Notes under the pieces: model-generated
The model's database searches: none
What the model was told of the DNA's origin: nothing
The model's input: the letters and a program-made list of their open reading frames with translations, nothing else
Shown: one piece after another, positions 4,168 to 14,963 of the stretch
Position numbering within the stretch: the first letter of the stretch is position 1
Layout of the letters: the number at the start of each line of letters is the position of its first letter
NCBI GenBank assembly: GCA_002731665.1
Contig: PCCJ01000024.1
Location: 1 to 25,898, forward strand
Reading direction: 5' to 3'
DNA from: Actinomycetota bacterium
Lineage (GTDB): Bacteria; Actinomycetota; Acidimicrobiia; Acidimicrobiales; Poriferisodaliceae
Length of the DNA stretch: 25,898 nt
Translations under genes and position numbers: made by a program

Positions 4168-4319
4168 GGTGGTCTGATATTGGAGATGAAAATTTAGATG
4201 TCCTCTGTTGCCTTCTGATCGTCCTACCTGGGCGGCTTTCATTGGCTTGGTAGCCGGTAGCGCTGACCAAGAGGTCATCTAAGCTGCAACACCTCTACTT
4301 AAACTGTTCACAAGATCGA
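4168..4319 (+). repeat. Leader-type repeat, orphan copy A (inverted relative to copy B)
   Basis: About 150 bases that align by eye (roughly 70-75%) with the reverse complement of 6588-6737, the leader of the arylsulfatase gene. Shared blocks include GATGAAAATTTAGATGT, GGGCGGCTTTC, TTGGTAGCCGGT, and a hairpin GCTGACC-aaga-GGTCATC (4262-4279). The similarity runs to the equivalent of a few bases before the arylsulfatase start codon, then ends. No plus-strand gene follows: the next 40 bases enter the convergent 3' end of the arylsulfatase gene. It fills most of the 318-bp gap between the cupin and arylsulfatase genes; nothing else was seen there. Confidence 0.75.
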
Positions 4320-4359
4320 TGCTGCGACTTCTATTTACTCTTCGCTGCTTGTTGAGTTG

Positions 4360-6582
4360 TTACTCGCGCATCATTTCTGCTCGACCCAGACCTTCTCCAT
4401 CGAGAAGTTGATCATCAGCTAAATCAATTGTTACCTTTATAAGGTCACCGGTGAATAGGTTTGGCGCTTCGTAATTCGACACAGCGGTTCCTCGATCGAG
4501 ACCAATATCTAAACCGGACCAGGAAATCATGAGGGAAAATATGTTGGCTGTTTCTTGCGTCGCCACCACATCACCATCGATAACTAATCGCCCCGACCCG
4601 CGATGGCTTTGTTCATCTCGCGACATGTAGAACCCTAAATTGGTTGTTCCAAGAGGAACCGGTTTAGGCGAGCGAAGTATCTGATGGCTTCCCCCAATAT
4701 TCAAATCGTGCACCAGATGGCCGCTACCGTCAAGATAAAGGCTGTAGCCAGAAGTTGCGTCGCCGTGAGCGATTAACACCCCTGAGACATCGGCTTTAGT
4801 CGGTTTAACCTGGGCGTCCATGCGATAGCTCCGACTTCGTAAATCAGGAGCCATATCGCTAGGCAAATGCCCCATCCCCTTCCAGAATGTGAAAAACGTG
4901 CGACCACCCAAATGACGGTCAGCGTTTTCGGCGAAGCGCTCGGCGAAACGGTCATCAAGAGGAAGCACTTGGTGCAATTCTGCCTGCTCCCACCAAAGTT
5001 CGATCATTTTGCTAAGTCGATCAGGTTCAGCTGATGACAGATCTTTAGATTCGTTGAAATCGTCCAGGAGATTGAACAATTCCCATTGATCATGTTCGTA
5101 CGGAGTTCCAGGTGGGTGAAAAGCGACTGCTTTCCACCCGTCATGGACTAGTCCACGATGGCCGAACATTTCGAAATATTGAGTTACTTTGCCGGTCTGT
5201 GCATACCGGTCTGTCAAGGTCGATGCAAAACTTACGCCTTCAATCGGCTTTTGCTGAACACCGTTAATTGTCTCGGGCGCCGCCACCTTTATCAAGTCAA
5301 GCAACGTGGGAACAATGTCAGACGCGTGGCAGAACTGGTCTCTCAATCCCGGATCTGTGATCTTGCGCGGCCAGTGCACAACTAAGGGATCTCTGACTCC
5401 GCCGCCGTGAGTGTTTTGTTTATATCGACGGAGCGGTGTGTTGGCGGTCATTGCCCACCCCCAGGGAAAGTTACTGTGAGTATCGGGCCCTCCGATGTCA
5501 TCGATTCTTTCAAATTTGGCTTCCATGGGTTCAGGGAGACCGTTATAGGGCCCCATAGCGTTTACGAAGCCGAGCGGTCCGCCCTCCTGACTTGCTCCGT
5601 TGTCCGAAAGAATCATGATCACGGTGTTGTCTAGTTGGCCCGAAAGGTCCAAGTGCTCAATAAGTCGAGCAAGGTGCACATCAGAATGATGGAGCATTGC
5701 GGCATATGCAGCTTGGAGTCGTGTAGCTACCTGATGAGTGATGTCGTCAAGTTGGTCCCAAGCTTCAACAAAGTCGTTTCGCGGCGGCAACTGAGTACCT
5801 CGTGGCACTATACCTAATGCGATCTGTCGCTCTAACCGTTCGGAACGCTCGGTATCCCATCCACGACGAAACATATTGTCATAGTGGTCAATAAGTTCCT
5901 TGGGGGCTTGATGCGGTGCGTGACAAGCACCGAGCCCTATCAAGGTCATCCAGGGGCTGTCGGGGATAGTCGCCTCGTGTGAAGTGATTAATTCGATCGC
6001 TTGGTCAAAAAGATCTTCAGTAAGGTGATATCCGGTGGAAAAATTTCCGGGCGGTGAAATGTGGCTGTTGTCACGAATCAGCTCCGGTGAGTATTGGTCG
6101 GTCTCGGCATCGAGAAAGCCATAGAACCGGTCGAAGCCCCTGCCTAATGGCCAACCGTCAAATGGCCCTGTAGGTCCTGATTCGGTTAACGGAGTAACAT
6201 GCCACTTTCCAATCATGTAGTTCCTGTAGCCGTGCGGACGCAGTATCTCGGCGAGAGTCCCAGCATCTGGACTGATTTTTCCTCTGTAACCCGGGTAGCC
6301 ACTATCGAAGTTAGCGAGGCATCCAACTCCAACGGAGTGATGATTCCGACCTGTCAGAAGAGCAGCACGCGTAGTTGAACACATAGCGGTCGTGTGAAAG
6401 CCCGTGTACTTTAGACCATTCGCTGCAAGTCGATCAATGGTAGGGGTAGAGATAGTTGAGCCATAGCATCCGAAATCCGAAAACCCCACGTCGTCAAAAA
6501 GAACAATCAAGACATTCGGGCTTCCGGCAGGTGGTGTTGCCTTTGCCGGCCAGCTTGGAGCAACTTCTTCTCTAAGGTTCAC
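4360..6582 (-). CDS. Type I arylsulfatase with C-terminal jelly-roll-like domain
   Basis: A 740-residue sulfatase that would hydrolyse sulfate esters, giving sulfate and an alcohol or phenol. Metal ligands are visible as D-D at 30-31, D-N at 327-328 and the G-K-W-H motif (Lys126, His128), with H-A-P-H near 221-224 and T-H-G-G-G near 391-395. The formylglycine site is Cys68 in C-S-T-T-R, where the usual motif is C-x-P-x-R; the following A-A-L-L-T-G-R-N-H-H is typical. After the sulfatase domain (about 20-540), residues about 590-725 look like the beta-sandwich tail common in large actinobacterial AtsA-like arylsulfatases. There is no signal peptide, so a cytoplasmic location is likely. Start is GTG at 6582 with AGGA about 8 bases upstream. 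A structured leader (copy B) precedes it. No formylglycine-generating enzyme gene is present here. Confidence 0.92.
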   Translation of the reverse strand: MNLREEVAPSWPAKATPPAGSPNVLIVLFDDVGFSDFGCYGSTISTPTIDRLAANGLKYTGFHTTAMCSTTRAALLTGRNHHSVGVGCLANFDSGYPGYRGKISPDAGTLAEILRPHGYRNYMIGKWHVTPLTESGPTGPFDGWPLGRGFDRFYGFLDAETDQYSPELIRDNSHISPPGNFSTGYHLTEDLFDQAIELITSHEATIPDSPWMTLIGLGACHAPHQAPKELIDHYDNMFRRGWDTERSERLERQIALGIVPRGTQLPPRNDFVEAWDQLDDITHQVATRLQAAYAAMLHHSDVHLARLIEHLDLSGQLDNTVIMILSDNGASQEGGPLGFVNAMGPYNGLPEPMEAKFERIDDIGGPDTHSNFPWGWAMTANTPLRRYKQNTHGGGVRDPLVVHWPRKITDPGLRDQFCHASDIVPTLLDLIKVAAPETINGVQQKPIEGVSFASTLTDRYAQTGKVTQYFEMFGHRGLVHDGWKAVAFHPPGTPYEHDQWELFNLLDDFNESKDLSSAEPDRLSKMIELWWEQAELHQVLPLDDRFAERFAENADRHLGGRTFFTFWKGMGHLPSDMAPDLRSRSYRMDAQVKPTKADVSGVLIAHGDATSGYSLYLDGSGHLVHDLNIGGSHQILRSPKPVPLGTTNLGFYMSRDEQSHRGSGRLVIDGDVVATQETANIFSLMISWSGLDIGLDRGTAVSNYEAPNLFTGDLIKVTIDLADDQLLDGEGLGRAEMMRE

Positions 6583-6587
6583 AACGT

Positions 6588-6737
6588 CGATCCTATGAAC
6601 AGTCGAAGTAGAAGCGTGACCGCCTAGCTGACCTCGTGGTCAGCACGACCGGCTACCAAAACGACGAAAGCCGCCCGCTGGGGCGACGTGGAAATAAAAC
6701 ATAGCACATCTAAATTTTCATTTCCACTAATAACCAC
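6588..6737 (-). promoter_or_regulatory. Structured 5' leader of the arylsulfatase gene, copy B (candidate riboswitch/attenuator)
   Basis: Reading on the minus strand: GTGGAAAT pairs with ATTTCCAC around a loop holding TTTAGATGTGCTAT. Next comes GTCGCC (6687-6682) pairing with GGCGGC (6675-6670), followed by CTTTCGTCGTTTT, which is terminator-like. A second hairpin, GCTGACC-acga-GGTCAGC (6644-6627), lies about 45 bases before the GTG start. The core recurs before an acyl-CoA ligase gene (16747-16816) and the whole element recurs at 4168-4319. The upstream DUF1330 gene has its own terminator-like hairpin (6802-6832), so this element probably belongs to the arylsulfatase transcript. The ligand or regulator is unknown; I recognise no named riboswitch class. 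Confidence 0.6.
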
Positions 6738-7920: not shown

Positions 7921-8610
7921 ATGAACAGACCGATTGTTCTAGTACATGGAGCATTCCATGGAGCCTGGTGCTGGGATCGCGTTACTTCCCACTTAGACGC
8001 TGCTGGCGTTCCCTGGAGAGCACCAGATCTTCCTAGTTCCGCCAATGCAGCTTCCGGCGCAGCCATCGATGAAGATACGGCAGCAGTGGAATCAGTTCTA
8101 GATAACCTTCCCGGCGATGAGCCCGCTGTGCTTCTTGGGCATTCCAGGGGCGGAGCAGTCATTTCAGAAGCTGGGACTCATCACAGGGTCGGATCTCTTA
8201 TCTATCTGACTGCTTTGCTTCTAGAAAAAGGAGAGAATCCATCTGGTCGGATCGGGACAAGTTTGATCGAAGCAATGATAAAGAACGTTGATGGCTCTCA
8301 TAGCGCTGATGTTCCTTTAGGCACAGAACTTTTCTACAACGACTGTGATGGAGACCAGATTAGTTTCGCAACTCGTCAGTTACGACCACAAAATATCGCT
8401 CTCGATACTCGCAATTCCCGGCAAGCGTGGACTGAAAAGCCTTCTATCTATGTGGTGTGCACGCGCGATAAAGCCCTCACCCCAGATAGTCAACGTTCGA
8501 TGGCTGCCAAGGCGAACACAACACTCGAATGGGACACAGGTCATTCGCCGTTTCTTAATCGACCCGAAGTTCTCGCAGCTCTATTAATTGGCTTGAGCGT
8601 TGGATCATAG
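7921..8610 (+). CDS. Alpha/beta hydrolase, methylesterase/pheophorbidase-like
   Basis: A 229-residue serine alpha/beta hydrolase. It begins with the strand and oxyanion region V-L-V-H-G-A-F-H-G-A-W-C-W (residues 6-18), typical of the plant methylesterase/hydroxynitrile lyase-like branch and many bacterial relatives. The nucleophile is Ser75 in G-H-S-R-G-G, the acid Asp183 in C-T-R-D-K, and the base His208 in T-G-H-S-P. The cap is short, giving a smaller protein than the dehalogenase and epoxide hydrolase of this window. The frame is open from 7906 (TTG), but AGGAG at 7912-7916 just before the ATG at 7921 supports this start. It is convergent with the PhyH-like gene. An ester substrate is likely; which one cannot be told. 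Confidence 0.85.
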   Translation: MNRPIVLVHGAFHGAWCWDRVTSHLDAAGVPWRAPDLPSSANAASGAAIDEDTAAVESVLDNLPGDEPAVLLGHSRGGAVISEAGTHHRVGSLIYLTALLLEKGENPSGRIGTSLIEAMIKNVDGSHSADVPLGTELFYNDCDGDQISFATRQLRPQNIALDTRNSRQAWTEKPSIYVVCTRDKALTPDSQRSMAAKANTTLEWDTGHSPFLNRPEVLAALLIGLSVGS

Positions 8611-8617
8611 TCATAAA

Positions 8618-8651
8618 TTAAACAGTCGAAAAATATCTGTTTTGAATTTTT
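8618..8651. terminator. Weak terminator between convergent genes
   Basis: AAACAG (8620-8625) pairs with CTGTTT (8637-8642), followed on the plus strand by TGAATTTTTC. It is AT-rich with only six pairs, but lies in the 41-bp gap between two convergent stops. Confidence 0.35.
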
Positions 8652-9476
8652 CTAAGCCCAATGGATTAACGGAAACCTTTGATCGTCGTCAGGATATTGC
8701 CCTGTTACTGAACTAGTGTCTTCATCGGTAACAGTGGGGTCGCAACCTGCATGAGGAAACCATGTAACGTCATCGCCTAACCAACGAGTAGATAGAGCAG
8801 CTCGCCTTTTTGCTCCCGAATTACCTGGCGAACCATGAATAATCCAGGCTGAAAAAAAGATAGCGTCTCCTGGCTTCACATCAAATCCGATGATCTCATA
8901 CTCACTTCGAGATGCCTCAATATCGGGACATTTTTCACCCTCAAACTCTGAAGCCCAACCCTCTTTTCCATCAAAAGCTTCCGGCGCATAATATGAACCC
9001 CAAGCGAGTGATCCTTTAACAAATTCAAGAGAACTGTCTGCAACTTTTGCTTCAGTAATGGCTACCCAGGCGGAGCAAATCTGCTTTCCAAGAAAAGGCC
9101 AGTAAGGAACATCTTGGTGCCAGGGCGTCGGATTAGATGTCGAAGGTTCCTTAATTAACAGGTGATCAAAATAGAATCGAGAGGAGCTAGATTCCATTAA
9201 CGCAGCTGCTATCTCACCCACTCCAGATTTAAACACGAAATCGTTAATTACGGGATCAGTTTCCCACCGATAGCGGCTAGTGAACAAACGGCCCTCTGCA
9301 GCCCCCGGATTTGTGTCGGTAACCCACGGACCCGGATGAGCTAACTGATTATCGGCGACAGATGAAAGTTTTTCTAAACACTCAGTATTTACGACCTGTT
9401 CAATTTTAACTACGCCGTGCTCGCGGTACTCATTCTTTACTTCATCAGACACTTGCTCGTGAACCAAGATCGGCAC
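8652..9476 (-). CDS. Phytanoyl-CoA dioxygenase (PhyH) family protein
   Basis: A 274-residue non-haem Fe(II)/2-oxoglutarate-dependent dioxygenase of the PhyH superfamily, which hydroxylates diverse substrates including acyl-CoAs, ectoine and small natural products. The metal triad is visible as W-H-Q-D (His120, Asp122) and I-I-H-G-S-P-G-N (His214). Arg224/225 in R-R-A-A-L-S-T-R fits the 2-oxoglutarate-binding arginine, and the flanking P-T-P-W-H-Q-D and P-G-D-A-I-F-F segments are typical. Start is GTG at 9476 with GAGGGGG about six bases upstream, a good ribosome-binding site. It appears monocistronic, downstream of a 258-bp gap. The substrate cannot be predicted. Confidence 0.87.
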   Translation of the reverse strand: MPILVHEQVSDEVKNEYREHGVVKIEQVVNTECLEKLSSVADNQLAHPGPWVTDTNPGAAEGRLFTSRYRWETDPVINDFVFKSGVGEIAAALMESSSSRFYFDHLLIKEPSTSNPTPWHQDVPYWPFLGKQICSAWVAITEAKVADSSLEFVKGSLAWGSYYAPEAFDGKEGWASEFEGEKCPDIEASRSEYEIIGFDVKPGDAIFFSAWIIHGSPGNSGAKRRAALSTRWLGDDVTWFPHAGCDPTVTDEDTSSVTGQYPDDDQRFPLIHWA

Positions 9477-9734
9477 CGGACCCCCTCAAACAATCAATAA
9501 TCACGAAACGATAGTCACGCGCACTGCCATGCTAGCTCATTGAGACAGGCAGTGGCATTGCCTTAGAGACCGGCGCTTTGGCCAATATTGATGTCGTCAT
9601 AACGTCGGCGCCAAAGATACTAATCTCTGCACTCAGAGCAGAAACAACAGACAGTGCTGTTCGCTATGATTCGAGCAAAAGAACCTTTACATACCCAGGC
9701 CAATGCAGCCTTTATTTTTGAATTCAGCTAGCTA

Positions 9735-10064
9735 CTATGCCGCTTCTTGACAATTCTTTAGAGCTCGAGCCCTTGCGGCTACGACAGCTGTCCGCCGTTT
9801 CCAAGACTTACTCTTCCAATGAGCTAGTCGAGATCGGTTTCGGCCAACTCTCGTTCGCTTCCAATGCGCTTTGTGTTGCGGCGGCCGGTGAGCGGGCGGC
9901 GGTGCGACTATCTCATCCGCGTCTCTCTCAACGTCTAGTGCTGCCGCGAACTTAGTTAAGCGACGGAGCTCATCGTTCTCGCGATGCCTGACTGATCTTG
10001 ACTTGGCAACATAGAAGTTATGACTTCTTATTTTTTCGAAGTCGTCTACATTGGGTTTGGCCAT
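9735..10064 (-). CDS. Small basic hypothetical protein
   Basis: A 109-residue frame with the best ribosome-binding site of the window: AAGAGGAGGAG directly before the ATG at 10064. I recognise no family. The N-terminal half (1-52) is mixed charge and looks helical. A Pro-rich hinge (about 54-62) leads into a very basic C-terminal half with repeated H-W-K and S-W-K-R-R motifs. This could bind nucleic acid, or the second half could be read in a shifted frame: one alternative frame after residue 52 gives a short acidic tail instead. The antisense frame at 9737-9955 is open across the same DNA but lacks a comparable start site. It stands alone between long intergenic stretches and is divergent from the 38-aa peptide gene at 10445. 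Confidence 0.55.
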   Translation of the reverse strand: MAKPNVDDFEKIRSHNFYVAKSRSVRHRENDELRRLTKFAAALDVERDADEIVAPPPAHRPPQHKAHWKRTRVGRNRSRLAHWKSKSWKRRTAVVAARARALKNCQEAA

Positions 10065-10444
10065 TGCTCCTCCTCTTGCTGTTCCTGATGGATTAGCTTT
10101 TAGATGAAACTATTTACCGTTACTTTAATCCTAGTCGCAGTTCATGGGTCCACCGCGCCAACACGTCAGAAGTAGTCGCGACCGGGTGCGCTCGTTGAGA
10201 TTCTGACTTACCTGAGCTCGACAATTAAGATTTTCATGTCGACTCTATTGTTAGTAACGCCTGTCGTAGTAACGCTACTCAACTAACGATCTTCGAGCAT
10301 CGGCATCGAGCCGCCGCCTCTATCGCAATCAAATTCGCTTTATTTAGACTCATAAATTTTTGATGTGTCGTTGGTCACGAATGGACGCGGCAACCTGTCT
10401 CTCTGCATATCTTGATAGGACACGAGTTAAGGAAAGGCAGAGCA
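10065..10444. other. Long divergent intergenic region with repeated TAGTAACGC
   Basis: This 380-bp region separates the minus-strand basic protein gene from the plus-strand peptide gene and no coding sequence was seen in it. It contains two direct copies of TAGTAACGC (10252-10260 and 10267-10275) inside an inverted pair GTTAGT (10250-10255) / ACTAAC (10282-10287), which could be an operator. It also contains the 15-bp motif at 10364-10378 shared with the other peptide gene. Confidence 0.4.
10364..10378 (+). promoter_or_regulatory. Shared upstream motif TGTGTCGTTGGTCAC
   Basis: This 15-mer differs at one base from the 15-mer at 13974-13988. Both lie on the same strand upstream of the two paralogous 38-aa peptide genes, ending 66 and 44 bases before the start codons. 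A pyrimidine-rich stretch containing TATC follows in both. It may be a promoter element or activator site. The rest of the two upstream regions does not align, so the match is not simply recent duplication. Confidence 0.5.
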
Positions 10445-10561
10445 ATGACTATTCTAAAACTAATGACCAATAAGCTTTTCGGTGGGAAAGAACCTCGAAG
10501 TTTTTATGAGACTAAACAATCTCATTTGAGTCAACAGCTCGGACCAAGATCATATTCCTGA
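10445..10561 (+). CDS. 38-aa small protein, paralogue 1 (G-K-E ... Q-Q-L-G-P-R-x-Y family)
   Basis: ATG at 10445 to TGA at 10559-10561 encodes 38 residues. AAGGAAAGG about 8-15 bases upstream is a good ribosome-binding site. The N-terminus is a short amphipathic basic stretch (T-I-L-K-L-M-T-N-K-L-F-G-G-K-E), and the C-terminal half reads S-F-Y-E-T-K-Q-S-H-L-S-Q-Q-L-G-P-R-S-Y-S. The peptide at 14033-14149 has the same length and shares 16 of 24 positions from G-K-E to the final Tyr, while the codons differ at many third positions (for example CTC/CTA, GGA/GGT, CCA/CCT). That pattern argues for selection on the protein. An intrinsic terminator follows at 10625. The function is unknown. No maturation enzyme lies nearby, so a RiPP precursor is possible but unsupported. 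Confidence 0.75.
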   Translation: MTILKLMTNKLFGGKEPRSFYETKQSHLSQQLGPRSYS

Positions 10562-10624
10562 TCTACTCGTGATATCTGAAGATCGCTTGCCTTCCAAAGC
10601 GATACCCAGGTTGATTATTTGCGG

Positions 10625-10657
10625 GCCAGCCCTTCGGGGCTGGCTCTTTCACTTTTT
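10625..10657 (+). terminator. Intrinsic terminator with UUCG tetraloop
   Basis: GCCAGCCC (10625-10632) pairs perfectly with GGGCTGGC (10637-10644) around a TTCG loop closed by C-G, followed by TCTTTCACTTTTT. It lies 63 bases after the stop of the first 38-aa gene and would define a transcript holding only that gene. Confidence 0.88.
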
Positions 10658-10788
10658 AATCGAGTACAGTATTCTGCTGGCACAGAGGTCTACTGCAGCA
10701 TTTCCGCATCCTCATATTGGTAGCCTCGGCGCGTAAACGAATTGCAATTGAGTACGTCAACTTTACGAATCGCTGCGAGGAACAGAAC

Positions 10789-11259
10789 ATGCCTTCACTT
10801 ATCCCATGCAACGAAAGATGGTACGAAGACTTTACGGAAGGTGAATCATTTCTTCTCGGTAGCGTTGAAATGGTCGAGAAAGAAATGCTCGATTTCGCAA
10901 ATCAGTTTGATCCTCAACGGTTTCACATTGATCCCGAAGCCGCATCTAAAACTCTCTACGGAGGTTTAATAGCTTCCGGTTGGCATACCGGTTCCTTAAT
11001 GATGAAATTAACTGCCGAAGGGTTCTTGGGTGAACATAGCGTCGGTTCAACTGGACTTTCAGAGTTGTCATGGCCGTCCGCTGTCCGAGTTGGAGACATT
11101 CTTAGGCTCAAGATTGAAATTTTAAGTAAGCGGGTTAGCGGTTCGAGACCAAATCTAGGTTTCATTGAGCTTAAAACTCAGATGATTAAACAAAACGATG
11201 AAATAGCGGTGCAAACTGTAGGAACGTTACTAATAGAAAGAAAAAGTGTTTCTGATTAG
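10789..11259 (+). CDS. MaoC-like (R)-specific enoyl-CoA hydratase/dehydratase
   Basis: A 156-residue hot-dog-fold protein of the MaoC/PhaJ type, which adds water to enoyl-CoA or dehydrates 3-hydroxyacyl-CoA. The hydratase motif is F-A-N-Q-F-D-P-Q-R-F-H-I-D-P-E-A-A, with Asp41 and His46 as the likely catalytic pair, followed by Y-G-G-L-I-A-S-G-W-H-T. A later G-x-S-E-L-S-W-P-S-A-V-R-V-G-D segment is also typical. The frame is open from 10717, but GAGG at 10777-10780 is eight bases before the ATG at 10789 and the family starts here. It follows the peptide-gene terminator and so has its own promoter. It is convergent with the TauD-like gene, and no terminator was seen in the 228-bp gap. Confidence 0.86.
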   Translation: MPSLIPCNERWYEDFTEGESFLLGSVEMVEKEMLDFANQFDPQRFHIDPEAASKTLYGGLIASGWHTGSLMMKLTAEGFLGEHSVGSTGLSELSWPSAVRVGDILRLKIEILSKRVSGSRPNLGFIELKTQMIKQNDEIAVQTVGTLLIERKSVSD

Positions 11260-11487
11260 AAGCTCTTCACCTCATGATTTCGAGGCGTTAAATTAACATG
11301 CCGAAAATTAGAGTTCACAACCCTCTCCTCACGTAGATAACCCCGAGCAAGCAGAAACAAACGTCAACCGGCATGCATTTCGTGATAGTTCAGCAAATAT
11401 CTGCCACATCTTCTTCGAGCTATTCAGCAATCAACTAGTTCGAAACGCGTTTAAATCCAACAAGAAATTTCGAGCGGACTACACGGA

Positions 11488-12342
11488 CTACTCGTGGAGC
11501 GTTATTCCAGTTCCACGCACTCTTGTTTGCCTCATATTTCGGCGAAAGCGGTCAGCGTCATAACCAGTACCTCGATGCAGAACGCACCGATTGTCCCAAA
11601 AAATTGTATCGCCGGGCTCCCAACTGTGAGACCACCGATTTCTTGGCTCCGTAGCAAAATCATTAAGCTCATCAATCAAACGACGGCTCTCAATACCACT
11701 CCATCCGACAATCGAACGGGCATGTGAACCAAGGTAATAGTTGCAGATGCCATTACTAGGGTTAGTTCTGACCAGCTTCTGTTCCACTGGGGGCAAAGAT
11801 GCCGCATGATTATCATCAACCGGCGCAGTCTTAGTCCGGCTAAATACATAGTCATGGAGAACATGAAGATCGTTAATCGCGGTCTGTTTCGCAGCGTCTA
11901 ATCGTTTGTATGCAGCTCTCTGACTCACAAACTCAGTTTCGCCTCCCTCCGCAGGAACTTCATAGGCATGAAGAATCGATATATAGGAAGGCACTAGCCT
12001 AAAAGACGAATCTGAATGCCAAAGATTATTACCCTTAAGCGCTCGAGTCTGTGGATCCGACTCTCCACGTTTTCTATTGTCGTCAATAACGTTACCAACG
12101 GTACCTATGTAAATTTTTTCGCCCGTTCGGCCAAACGCAATGTGGCTTTCCTCCGGTTCGCCGAACGATCTAGTCAATGCCATCTGAGCTTTATCGCTCA
12201 TATTCTGTTCAGGGAATAGCAAAACTGAATGTTCGTCAATCGCTGCTCTCAAGCTCGTGATCTGGTGAGAAGCTAACGGCAGAGCCAAATCGATGCCAGT
12301 AATCTTCGCACCGAAGTCATCATGAAGAGCTTCGATTCTCAT
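11488..12342 (-). CDS. TauD/TfdA family 2-oxoglutarate-dependent dioxygenase
   Basis: An Fe(II)/2-oxoglutarate dioxygenase of the TauD/TfdA family (284 residues from the chosen start). From this start, H-S-D in L-W-H-S-D-S-S-F gives the first two metal ligands (His109, Asp111), and V-L-H-R-G-T the third (about His256). R-R-N-M-R-Q-T-R-V holds the 2-oxoglutarate-binding arginine. The N-terminal G-A-K-I-T-G-I-D-L motif is characteristic. The frame is open ten codons further up to a GTG at 12372, but the ATG at 12342 matches the usual family start; neither has a clear ribosome-binding site. It is the last gene of a likely three-gene minus-strand unit with the TIGR03084 and DMSP-lyase-like genes. 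The substrate is unknown; taurine is one of many possibilities. Confidence 0.87.
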   Translation of the reverse strand: MRIEALHDDFGAKITGIDLALPLASHQITSLRAAIDEHSVLLFPEQNMSDKAQMALTRSFGEPEESHIAFGRTGEKIYIGTVGNVIDDNRKRGESDPQTRALKGNNLWHSDSSFRLVPSYISILHAYEVPAEGGETEFVSQRAAYKRLDAAKQTAINDLHVLHDYVFSRTKTAPVDDNHAASLPPVEQKLVRTNPSNGICNYYLGSHARSIVGWSGIESRRLIDELNDFATEPRNRWSHSWEPGDTIFWDNRCVLHRGTGYDADRFRRNMRQTRVRGTGITLHE

Positions 12343-12452
12343 GGGAATAGCTTGACATACGAGATGCCACAATGCGAGCTTCGCTTATGTCTAATAACAT
12401 TCCGTAGCACAGCGAAAGCCCTATCAACCAGCGGTGTAGAAGCTGTTTTCTT

Positions 12453-13241
12453 TCAGGCTATATCGCTTATTCGCGGAGGCTCAATCCAAGGTTGTGCGAT
12501 TTGCATCCACTCAGCTGCTAGGTCTCCTTCGGTCTTAACTGCAGACTCGTCGACCGGGACTCGCCTTGTTATAACCTTACAAAACTCATAGGCGGTTGAG
12601 TGCACGCGGTCTGCGGCATCCTCTGGTCCCCAAACCCATTGCTCCCCACTTGGACTCATAAGCTCAACCCGCACTGGTTGGGTTGGTGGAGACAACCCTC
12701 GGTTAAGGTAACTAAACTCGCGAGTGACGACACCGATATGGGCAATGTGTCGAAGGCGGTCTGTTTGCGGATAATCACAACCGAAAGTATCGGCTAAGTC
12801 ATGGGAATGTGTCCAAGTTTCTAGTAGCCGACTCGTTGCCAACGACCGAGCGCCGATGTCTGGGCCCAGCCAAGTTATGCGGGATTTCGGGTCTGAGGTC
12901 CGCAAACCTTCGATCATTTCCATACGACCGTTGAGAAACCATTCCCAGAGTTGACAGCCCGTCATTGTCTGAACCTCGGAACCACCTAACCCGTTAGCTG
13001 ATACCTCGCCGTTAGCTAAGCTCTCGCGCATTACAGCAAACGTTTTTGGATCCTTGACCGCTAGGCAACACAGCAAATCGGTGCTACCAAGATGGAGAAT
13101 AGTTTCATGACTATCCCAACCCTCCGCGACCGTAGGTGCTCTCCACTGCTCTTCATCTAAGGAACCAACAACGTTTGATAGAGCCACAGTCTCTGCTTCA
13201 AGGTCATCGCAAATCGGATCCACAGAAAAAGTGTAGTCCAA
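12453..13241 (-). CDS. TIGR03084 family, maleylpyruvate-isomerase-like (DinB fold) protein
   Basis: A 262-residue protein of the actinobacterial TIGR03084 group, related to mycothiol-dependent maleylpyruvate isomerase. The N-terminal four-helix DinB-like domain carries a metal site made by His50 and the E-x-x-x-H pair Glu141/His145 in L-E-T-W-T-H. Family hallmarks include A-E-G-W-D, I-T-W-L-G-P, a histidine-rich R-L-R-H-I-A-H-I-G segment, W-V-W-G-P-E-D-A-A and the C-terminal I-A-Q-P-W. The start is a TTG at 13241; a GTG six codons later is an alternative, and neither has a good ribosome-binding site. It lies 53 bp after the DMSP-lyase-like gene. The reaction of TIGR03084 proteins is not established; thiol-dependent chemistry is inferred from the relatives. 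Confidence 0.86.
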   Translation of the reverse strand: MDYTFSVDPICDDLEAETVALSNVVGSLDEEQWRAPTVAEGWDSHETILHLGSTDLLCCLAVKDPKTFAVMRESLANGEVSANGLGGSEVQTMTGCQLWEWFLNGRMEMIEGLRTSDPKSRITWLGPDIGARSLATSRLLETWTHSHDLADTFGCDYPQTDRLRHIAHIGVVTREFSYLNRGLSPPTQPVRVELMSPSGEQWVWGPEDAADRVHSTAYEFCKVITRRVPVDESAVKTEGDLAAEWMQIAQPWIEPPRISDIA

Positions 13242-13294
13242 TATCAGCGAGGTCAGTAACGCAGAAAATCCATGGAAGAACCCAACTCTTGCCT

Positions 13295-13897
13295 CTAGGC
13301 TCTCGCTACTTCAAATCCCCAAAGTACATACAACGCAACAAGTGGAGTGTCGCCAGCTTGAACCGTGTGTAAATCAAAAGGGTGGTTGTATAAAACTGAC
13401 TCGGGTTTTACTTCAACCAGTGCTTTGGCGCCACCATATCTCCATTGCGCTGTGCCTGAAATAGTTAGATACATCTCTTGCGGAGGATGGTTATGAATCG
13501 GATACGAGCAACCACGGTCAACATACATTATTCCGACTTCTAGGCCTGGTAAATCAAAGGCATCAGACAAAACGCATAGCGCTCTTTCTCTGCCTCTATC
13601 TTTCCAACGCTCAGACTCAACCCATCGCAATGACGATGCAAATTCAGTGAACTCACGTGCTCGAGGCGTGTCGCAGACATCGCCGAGGTTCTGTAAAGCA
13701 GTTAGCTGCTTAGCTTCATAAGCTATCGGTGCCGCTTTCTCGATCGCCGATCGAAGTTGCCAAGCACCTTCTTTTGCTATCGCTTCGCTCGGGAGTGAAA
13801 TAGCGCTATCCGCCGCGCTGATTAACCAAGTGCGTATTTTGTCGTGGTCTTGAAGCACGTTCATAATCTCACCTGCAACCTCGAATTCTGAAATCAT
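13295..13897 (-). CDS. Cupin DMSP lyase-like protein (dimethylpropiothetin dethiomethylase)
   Basis: A 200-residue protein with a helical N-terminal half and a C-terminal cupin resembling DddL/DddQ/DddK-type DMSP lyases, which split dimethylsulfoniopropionate into dimethyl sulfide and acrylate. The cupin begins at S-Y-P-I-H-N-H-P-P-Q-E-M-Y (His135, His137, Glu141, Tyr143), continues through S-G-T-A-Q-W, and has the second motif near H-P-F-D-L-H-T-V (His177), then T-P-L-V-A-L-Y-V-L-W-G. The Tyr close after the metal-binding Glu and the W-R-Y-G-G turn fit the lyase group. The ATG at 13897 lacks a close ribosome-binding site; the ATG at 13864, preceded by AGGTGAG, is a good alternative (189 residues). 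It leads a probable operon with TIGR03084 and TauD genes. Other cupin functions remain possible. Confidence 0.7.
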   Translation of the reverse strand: MISEFEVAGEIMNVLQDHDKIRTWLISAADSAISLPSEAIAKEGAWQLRSAIEKAAPIAYEAKQLTALQNLGDVCDTPRAREFTEFASSLRWVESERWKDRGRERALCVLSDAFDLPGLEVGIMYVDRGCSYPIHNHPPQEMYLTISGTAQWRYGGAKALVEVKPESVLYNHPFDLHTVQAGDTPLVALYVLWGFEVARA

Positions 13898-13973
13898 AAA
13901 CGCTGGCGATCGAATCTCCTCTTTGTCGTTTCACCCTCTACATAAAACGTTTGCCTTTTATTACGATTAGCGC

Positions 13974-13988
13974 TGTGTCGTTTGTCAC
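13974..13988 (+). promoter_or_regulatory. Shared upstream motif TGTGTCGTTTGTCAC
   Basis: One-base variant of the 15-mer at 10364-10378, located 44 bases before the start of the second 38-aa peptide gene and on the same strand. A weaker partial copy, TTGTCGTTTCAC, begins at 13923. All lie in the 135-bp divergent region shared with the DMSP-lyase-like gene, so the site could act on either gene. Confidence 0.5.
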
Positions 13989-14032
13989 TTCTTAGACTTT
14001 CTACTTCTCTCATTCCTTATCGTGAAACCACT

Positions 14033-14149
14033 ATGAAAAAGTCACTTTCGAAACTCACTTATAAAGCGCTCACAGGGAAAGAAGCTCCAAGCTTTTATGA
14101 CTCCAAGAGAGCGCATCAAAATCAGCAACTAGGTCCTCGTAACTACTAG
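14033..14149 (+). CDS. 38-aa small protein, paralogue 2 (G-K-E ... Q-Q-L-G-P-R-x-Y family)
   Basis: ATG at 14033 to TAG at 14147-14149 encodes 38 residues. The basic amphipathic N-terminus (K-K-S-L-S-K-L-T-Y-K-A-L-T-G-K-E) is followed by A-P-S-F-Y-D-S-K-R-A-H-Q-N and Q-Q-L-G-P-R-N-Y at the very C-terminus. The peptide is clearly paralogous to that at 10445-10561. The ribosome-binding site is poor (GTGAAACC). There are no Cys residues and no membrane-spanning segment. It is divergent from the DMSP-lyase-like gene and followed within 20 bases by two tandem terminators, so it forms its own short transcript. The function is unknown; a conserved small regulatory, ribosome-associated or membrane-surface protein would all fit. 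Confidence 0.73.
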   Translation: MKKSLSKLTYKALTGKEAPSFYDSKRAHQNQQLGPRNY

Positions 14150-14166
14150 TCGCTTACAAAGCTTAA

Positions 14167-14196
14167 GTCGGTGGCCCCCCTTCCACCGGCTTTCTT
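14167..14196 (+). terminator. Intrinsic terminator after the second 38-aa gene
   Basis: GTCGGTGG (14167-14174) pairs with CCACCGGC (14183-14190; one T-G pair) around an eight-base loop, followed by TTTCTT. It starts 18 bases after the peptide stop codon. Confidence 0.75.
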
Positions 14197-14237
14197 AATA
14201 AGGATCGGCCACCTGCGCCGGTCCTTATTTATTTTTC
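14197..14237 (+). terminator. Second, stronger tandem terminator
   Basis: AATAAGGATCGGC (14197-14209) pairs with GCCGGTCCTTATT (14217-14229) in 13 consecutive pairs including one G-U, around a seven-base loop, followed by TATTTTTC. The A-rich left arm would let it also act on minus-strand transcripts. Confidence 0.85.
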
Positions 14238-14400
14238 ATTAGTCAGGTTGCCGACCAGACGCCCAAAAAACGGTCATAGTTAAAGGAGTGACCTCGCCGG
14301 CGCTAGCCATAGACAGCTTTACGTGCCCATTTTTTCTACGGAAGCGAACACGTCAAGGGCTTTTCATTACTTACGAAACACTTGCGTATCGAACCCCATA

Positions 14401-14501
14401 GACTTTCAGTGAAGCCAACAAGTGCGGCTGCGCCTGTTGGCTTCACTGAAAGTCCTCACCCGATGATCTCATCCATCAGACGGTGGGGACTTTCACTTTT
14501 T
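14401..14501 (+). promoter_or_regulatory. Overlapping hairpin pair ending in a T-tract
   Basis: A perfect 20-bp inverted repeat (14401-14420 with 14435-14454, 14-base loop) overlaps a second hairpin whose left arm TGAAAGTCCTCACC (14447-14460) pairs with GGTGGGGACTTTCA (14482-14495; one G-U), followed by CTTTTT. The last eight bases of the first stem are also the first eight of the second, so in plus-strand RNA the two full structures are mutually exclusive, as in attenuators. No gene follows on the plus strand. It may be a DNA-level palindrome, a terminator, or part of a small RNA. The remaining intergenic sequence (14238-14400 and 14502-14585) showed nothing recognisable. Confidence 0.55.
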
Positions 14502-14585
14502 CGTTCCAGATCACATCTCACGTCTCTCGCTAACAAATGAGCACCAGGGCTTTTTAATTCAATGCAGAGCTTCCGACTATGAGAT

Positions 14586-14963
14586 TTAGATTAAATTTTC
14601 GTAGCGTTTGAGCTCAATTTGATTACCGTCTAAGTCGCGGATGTAGACCGCTGGGCCCCAGCCTTGAGCACCGTAGATGGATGTAAACTCTCGAACAGTT
14701 TCTACATCATCATGAGCTAAAAGGGTCTCTAGGTCGCCCTCGACATATAGGGCTATATGGTCGACATTTTCACCTGAACGTTCAGTTTCGAGAAGATCTA
14801 TGATCGTGGTTTCATTTACCTTCATCGAGAGGAAGGGTGCCTTACCTGACTTCCACTCCTCATAGCGCAGTGGCTTCATCCCAAGCCGATCTCGGTACCA
14901 GCACATCGCTGTTTCAGCGTCGGAAACATTTATCACTAGATGATCTATTCCAATAACTTTCAT
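14586..14963 (-). CDS. VOC (glyoxalase/bleomycin resistance/dioxygenase) family protein
   Basis: A single VOC module pair of 125 residues. The start I-D-H-L-V-I-N-V-S-D places His8 as the first metal ligand, V-D-H-I-A-L gives His69, and the final strand R-D-L-D-G-N-Q-I-E-L gives Glu117. This H-H-E set is compatible with a metal-dependent lyase, isomerase or extradiol-type enzyme. The F-Y-R/W-Y-R-D-R-L-G motif at 22-28 is typical of the superfamily. ATG at 14963 follows AGGAAG, which overlaps the stop codon of the upstream acyl-CoA ligase gene, so the two are almost certainly cotranscribed and perhaps translationally coupled. VOC proteins catalyse many reactions; the neighbouring ligase suggests a CoA thioester or its precursor as partner. 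Confidence 0.85.
   Translation of the reverse strand: MKVIGIDHLVINVSDAETAMCWYRDRLGMKPLRYEEWKSGKAPFLSMKVNETTIIDLLETERSGENVDHIALYVEGDLETLLAHDDVETVREFTSIYGAQGWGPAVYIRDLDGNQIELKRYENLI

Follow-up and report, generated by a model that had tools for sequence, protein, structure and literature searches.

Lineage-specific (orphan) small proteins are an already known kind of bacterial gene product, and some small proteins act as regulators, such as SgrT, a protein of 43 amino acids with a regulatory role in the carbon metabolism of enteric bacteria. Among ribosomally synthesised and post-translationally modified peptides (RiPPs), most keep the leader while the core varies; in lasso peptides the core starts with G (or A, C or S), carries D or E at position 7-9, and follows a leader with Thr at position -2. 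For the CRP/GlxR cyclic AMP (cAMP) regulons of actinobacteria, PMC7999487 gives TGTGA-N6-TCACA as the GlxR consensus and reports a functional ldhA site with two bases off consensus. The present analysis concerns two genes for small proteins, termed gene 1 and gene 2, which lie in a stretch of 25,898 nucleotides (nt) from a member of the Acidimicrobiales, Poriferisodaliceae (contig PCCJ01000024.1, GCA_002731665.1); this whole stretch is called the window.

The pair resembles orphan small proteins in encoding products of fewer than 50 amino acids, in being confined, as far as these searches reach, to a single genus, and in having database entries with misplaced starts. It differs from them in that two copies, a common promoter element and an invariant tail make it a defined family. 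SgrT is comparable in size, in its stand-alone gene and in the suspected control by carbon state, which is a likeness of description; however, it belongs to another host phylum. The likenesses to RiPP precursors and to CRP/GlxR regulons are considered below.

Coding evidence and distribution of the two genes

10445-10561, + strand: gene 1, small protein of 38 amino acids (P0001), from frame and translation; orthologue in G001
14033-14149, + strand: gene 2, small protein of 38 amino acids (P0002), from frame and translation; identical protein in G001 and G002

The first-pass annotation had proposed these two frames of 38 amino acids as paralogous coding sequences, and both exist at these coordinates. 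Its count of 16 shared residues in a 24-position motif had to be lowered to 15 of 24 on recounting. The differing codons that it had described were borne out, with 9 of the 15 identical residues using a synonymous codon and 6 the same one. Over their whole length the two proteins align with 51% identity and 19 invariant columns. The nearest relatives found were two draft genomes, G001 (FRAM18_bin006, titled Acidimicrobiaceae, 2.6 Mb) and G002 (0.2_20180319_Bin_108, titled Acidimicrobiales). Aligned blocks of at least 2 kb are 83-92% identical between the window and G001, and a 6.3-kb block common to the window and G002 is 87% identical; the window was therefore taken as a third, related species.

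The protein of gene 2 is identical in all three species (38/38 residues). Its 38 codons contain 11 variable sites, every one of them third-position and synonymous, a pattern reached by none of 20,000 simulated random placements. The frame is 91% identical in the three species, against 67% for the 100 bases upstream and 79% for the 100 bases downstream. Gene 1 could be compared with one orthologue, in G001 (P0004), where the reading frame is kept through changes of -3 and +18 nt, the protein lacking one residue ahead of FYETKQ and carrying a repeat of six residues behind it. Over the 35 codons compared (17 + 6 + 12, length changes left out), 7 synonymous and 6 non-synonymous differences separate the window from G001. 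As judged from these comparisons, purifying selection is strong on gene 2 and weaker on gene 1, which is much less constrained; the status of gene 1 as a gene therefore rests on its in-frame length changes and on the motif common with gene 2.

The two frames could also be chance ones within conserved non-coding DNA. They are short, and gene 1, at 80% identity, is kept no better than the preceding 100 bases (also 80%). However, all 11 changes in gene 2 are synonymous, the length changes in gene 1 are in frame, the paralogues share the motif with different codons, and no frameshift or internal stop occurs in the three orthologues outside the window (two of gene 2, one of gene 1). Chance frames are thus highly improbable, and both frames are almost certainly real protein genes, with protein-level selection indicated by the motif and by the purely synonymous variation of gene 2.

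Both genes are present together in G001, the one relative with contigs spanning both places. The G002 contig stops at about window position 11123, so that this genome is uninformative on gene 1; searched with window positions 8600-11100, it gave a single match (70%) inside the MaoC gene. No third copy was found in the window by a six-frame motif search, and a profile run over the window's open frames gave nothing further better than E 10. The family profile was built from four sequences, and a distant relative with an altered tail could escape it. This profile recovered just the two genes from G001 at E up to 10, while weak extra matches of a two-row profile in G001 (E 0.06) and G002 (E 0.51) were judged by eye to be chance.

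The homologue search in related genomes found relatives, all within this genus. Profile searches matched 2/2 genomes of the genus, 2/39 of the family, 2/397 sampled in the order and 1/396 sampled in the phylum; G002 had no listed match in the phylum sample and so was probably not drawn. A strict back-translated pattern run over genome contigs (84,980 species by description) gave four loci, two of them real and both from this genus; at the other two (L002 and L003) the reading frames misfit the family, and the matches were taken as chance. Viral contigs gave 0 matches to a strict pattern. An earlier order-wide pattern search returned 3/397 genomes (G001, G002 and a chance match, G296). Because it demanded a stop one codon after Tyr, it would overlook the window's own gene 2; this made it too narrow, and the profile search took its place.

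The view that no known family carries this signature was upheld: with E values of up to 10 allowed, Pfam and NCBIfam (two proteins) and PHROGs (three proteins) gave 0 matches. A profile search of the PDB reached only E 1.4 at best. Among papers under Creative Commons licences in PMC, none contained 'QQLGPR' and none contained both 'small proteins' and 'Acidimicrobiia'. None of the libraries consulted thus contains the family, and in the searches made, which did not extend to metagenome DNA, it appears limited to one small genus.

A database of 5.8 billion proteins yielded three entries. All three represent gene 2 with its start placed further upstream, and one of them is a cluster of seven members from 16 contigs. 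The description of the genes as unannotated holds apart from one gene 2 cluster, which carries the JGI name 'hypothetical protein' and starts far upstream. An extension of gene 2 to the 58, 88 or 95 amino acids of the three database proteins was rejected. The upstream residues vary by species (PYRETT, PYREST, PYRDIT), a one-base length difference occurs upstream in the three-species alignment, and the promoter element and -10-like box described below sit there. It is also disfavoured by a stop at the sixth codon before the ATG of gene 1 in G001.

Promoter element and probable transcript ends

10364-10379, + strand: upstream element 1, TGTGTCGTTGGTCACG, CRP/GlxR-like, with 8/10 consensus bases (window repeat; consensus score)
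10408-10413, + strand: TANNNT (-10-like) box TATCTT, offset by 44 nt from the element's first base (offset test)
10429-10437, + strand: Shine-Dalgarno-like AAGGAAAGG of gene 1 (read from sequence)
13974-13989, + strand: upstream element 2, TGTGTCGTTTGTCACT, the same CRP/GlxR-like site (window repeat; consensus score)
14018-14023, + strand: TANNNT (-10-like) box TATCGT, offset by 44 nt from the element's first base, unchanged in the window, G001 and G002

Both genes are preceded by the pattern TGTGTCGTT(G/T)GTCAC. The first-pass annotation had missed both this common element and the constant spacing between it and a -10-like box, which are new here. Five promoters were read, those of gene 1 in the window and G001 and those of gene 2 in the window, G001 and G002. 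In all five, the TANNNT box starts at an offset of exactly 44 bases from the element's first base, whereas the distance from element to ATG is 59, 81 or 82; among 20,000 column-shuffled controls, a fraction of 0.00325 (0.3%) had a common TANNNT offset. Exact matches to the 15-nt form TGTGYCRTTNGTCAC number two in G001 and one in G002, each upstream of these genes (gene 2 in G002). With at most one mismatch, the element occurs at three places in G001 and three in G002, against one and none for the reversed-pattern control; of these six places, the three that carry a mismatch have no such small gene in the 240 bases downstream.

Compared with TGTGA-N6-TCACA, the element has 8/10 consensus bases at all five sites, a level reached by 0.2% of random 16-mers over five registers (uncorrected for other noticeable regulator motifs). 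Positions 5, 7, 10 and 16 vary among the five sites by eye, none of them among the eight consensus-matching positions. As in the CRP/GlxR regulons of actinobacteria, a CRP-type regulator is present, with one cyclic nucleotide monophosphate (cNMP)-binding protein in each of G001 and G002. The best PDB relative of the G001 protein is a Crp/Fnr regulator (E 1.6e-37), with which it shares the recognition-helix residues ASRE-VNKAL. That the element is bound by the CRP/GlxR-type regulator of the genus, and hence that the pair is under CRP control, is plausible, although somewhat short of the expected outcome.

As a separate observation, the sole strict CRP site in G002 is a perfect palindrome, TGTGACACTTGTCACA, at positions 1501-1516 of locus L054 (G002:C129:3587-3602). 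It lies upstream of a gene whose product resembles, by eye, a SulP-type transporter, next to the RidA-type gene with which the window begins.

10582-10646, + strand: pair of hairpins 3' of gene 1, of which the one at 10623-10646 (the second) is terminator-like, with a 10-pair stem and a T-rich tail
14165-14229, + strand: pair of hairpins 3' of gene 2, at 14165-14192 and 14197-14229, with TATTTTTC behind the second

The hairpins of gene 1 are predicted at the same places in G001 with changed sequence, and those of gene 2 are predicted in the window, G001 and G002. The strong terminators claimed earlier are thus partly sustained, as hairpins follow both genes also in relatives; however, a terminator scan of 10000-14700 did not exceed chance (6 found against 4.5 +/- 2.2 in shuffles). 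Similarly, the claim of separate single-gene transcripts agrees with the terminator-like hairpin after each gene and derives from this layout, each gene probably being its own transcription unit.

Further downstream, 14395-14505 holds two adjoining hairpins (arms 14401-14425/14430-14454 and 14447-14467/14475-14495) that have TGAAAGTC in common and end in CTTTTT. Both stem cores are predicted in G001 and G002 with altered sequence, and the pair is a candidate for an unknown RNA or a terminator; Rfam, tRNA and tandem-repeat searches of the window gave no match. The 12-mer CTTTCACTTTTT occurs both at 10646-10657, in the terminator tail of gene 1, and at 14490-14501, at the end of this later hairpin pair after gene 2.

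Neighbouring genes

13295-13897, - strand: cupin, match to PF16867 DMSP_lyase above cut-off (Pfam scan)

Gene 2 is divergent from this cupin gene, whose match to the dimethylsulfoniopropionate (DMSP) lyase family reaches 45 bits (cut-off 27), and upstream element 2 also lies 77-92 bases upstream of the cupin open reading frame (ORF). Gene 1 precedes a gene for a MaoC-type hydratase. Further neighbours identified with Pfam are TauD, PhyH, MDMPI-type, acyl-CoA ligase, hydrolase and glyoxalase genes. No toxin partner or mobile element was recognised among the 20 Pfam-scanned ORFs of the window, three of which had no match. Cupin homologues were detected in 15 of the family's 39 genomes. Beside the cupin, a small gene was absent in 13 of 13 genomes outside the genus, searched with short motifs over about 1.5 kb on each side, and none was found in 9 of these 13 neighbourhoods when 12-20 kb were compared with 17 window proteins, both small ones included.

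Two other features of the window were recorded. An inverted repeat of about 150 nt (4178-4327 and 6579-6729, 76% identical over 152 columns) flanks a sulfatase gene at 4360-6582. On the - strand, 9735-10064 encodes an Arg/Lys-rich protein of 109 amino acids that has no Pfam or NCBIfam match and is 90% identical in G001.

Proposed mechanism, alternatives and meaning

The helices predicted by AlphaFold (mean predicted local distance difference test score, pLDDT, of 78) cover residues 5-14 and 21-33 and do not include the C-terminal tail. Most residues common to both paralogues belong to helix 2, to the turn that precedes it or to the tail; among them, F21, Y22, K25, H28, Q31 and Q32 recur every three to four residues. 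A Foldseek comparison of the model with the PDB gave no meaningful fold match (best E 4.8).

The following chain of events is proposed. A CRP/GlxR-type regulator would bind the element, centred near -48, and both small proteins would be made in response to cAMP, that is, to carbon or energy state or growth phase. Transcription would start 12 bases after the start of the -10-like box, which would leave gene 2 nearly leaderless and give gene 1 a leader of about 25 bases with AAGGAAAGG; a near-leaderless gene 2 fits the absence of an evident Shine-Dalgarno sequence there. The second helix and the invariant tail, FY-x-x-K-x-x-H-x-x-QQLGPR-x-Y, may dock on one common protein partner, whereas the divergent first helix could give each copy its own specificity, and the pair would act as small protein regulators, like SgrT, and not as enzymes. 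As a whole, a co-regulated, paralogous and genus-restricted pair under CRP control that docks on a common partner is a tentative reading of the sequence data.

Several observations speak against this chain, in addition to the equal conservation of gene 1 and its upstream bases. On the promoter side, the putative binding site is off consensus at positions 5 and 16, and its centre near -48, reckoned from a transcription start that is itself deduced, is non-classic. Classic CRP sites are centred at -41.5 or -61.5. Within the window, 15 places reach 8/10 (the two element sites included), and the element at three mismatches is no rarer than chance (3 found, 1.9 expected). Strict TGTGAN6TCACA sites are not enriched, with one place each in G001 and G002 against two and one for the reversed control; therefore the data show no sign of a wide CRP regulon. 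With the NCBI CRP model, the CRP-type protein of G001 scores 94.5 bits, far below the cut-off of 266. On the protein side, the AlphaFold model, made from four sequences, has a predicted template modelling score (pTM) of 0.33, the hydrophobic moment of helix 2 is not above that of shuffles (reached by 49% and 89%), and no docking partner is known for the pair. In the nine neighbourhoods compared from outside the genus, the cupin is not accompanied by the other neighbours.

Instead of docking on a protein partner, the pair could be basic small proteins with a direct affinity for the ribosome, RNA or DNA, their net positive charge providing the binding and the tail occupying a fixed site of a large complex. 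The excess of K/R over D/E (8 against 2 in P0002, 6 against 2 in P0001) is in line with this, and an identical gene 2 protein in three species fits a fixed contact. However, a core protein would be expected beyond one genus, whereas the sampled matches in order and phylum all belong to this genus, and the best PDB sequence match had an E value of 1.4; direct binding is rather unlikely. An anchorage in the membrane through an amphipathic first helix, the lead of the first-pass annotation, would agree with the predicted helix at residues 5-14 and its lysines and leucines. The amphipathic N-terminus was rejected, because shuffled sequences match its hydrophobic moment (reached by 39% of shuffles for P0001, 64% for P0004 and 10% for P0002), and membrane-bound small proteins are accordingly improbable. 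About equally improbable are dual-function transcripts, in which a structured small RNA would be the main actor while also coding for a peptide. Transcript 2 folds better than shuffles (z -6.2), as does transcript 1 (z -4.3), and the 3' hairpins are predicted in relatives despite altered sequence. However, much of the structure sits in these 3' hairpins, and the purely synonymous changes of gene 2 are not yielded by RNA constraint alone.

The two proteins could also be precursor peptides, of a RiPP or a secreted signal, from which the invariant C-terminal stretch would be cut out, perhaps modified, and exported. Like lasso and other RiPP precursors, they have a fitting length and a conserved C-terminal part behind a more variable front half. 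G at position 1 and D/E at position 9 of the would-be core or ring are present in P0001, P0002 and P0004, a weak sign that is easily met by chance. The conservation nevertheless runs opposite to that of most RiPPs, no Thr occurs at -2 (L, F and L in P0002, P0001 and P0004, respectively), and the front part has only 12-14 residues. The lasso protease family PF13471 was matched in 0 of 2 draft genomes, whose completeness is not stated and in which other maturation families were not searched. In agreement with the earlier remark that no maturation enzyme is nearby, no maturation or export protein was recognised among the 20 ORFs of the window by Pfam (three without any match), and no signal peptide is visible by eye. 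A precursor function is therefore unlikely.

The proposal of small regulators docking on a common partner could extend to the neighbouring cupin, since gene 2 shares its promoter region with this gene of the DMSP-lyase kind. In its fullest form, that of a new two-member family, in an uncultured marine genus, of cAMP/CRP-controlled small regulators that both dock on one partner via an invariant FY-K-H-QQLGPRxY tail and possibly tie the use of algal sulfur compounds to carbon state, it is a long shot, and the function of the pair is a guess with partial support. The protein-level selection, the explicit promoter rule and the finding that the database entries seen start gene 2 too early stand beside this guess. 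If the docking idea is true, the tail would be a ready bait for the partner. The two genes represent a clean, testable orphan small-protein family in marine bacteria that are known here only from metagenome drafts.

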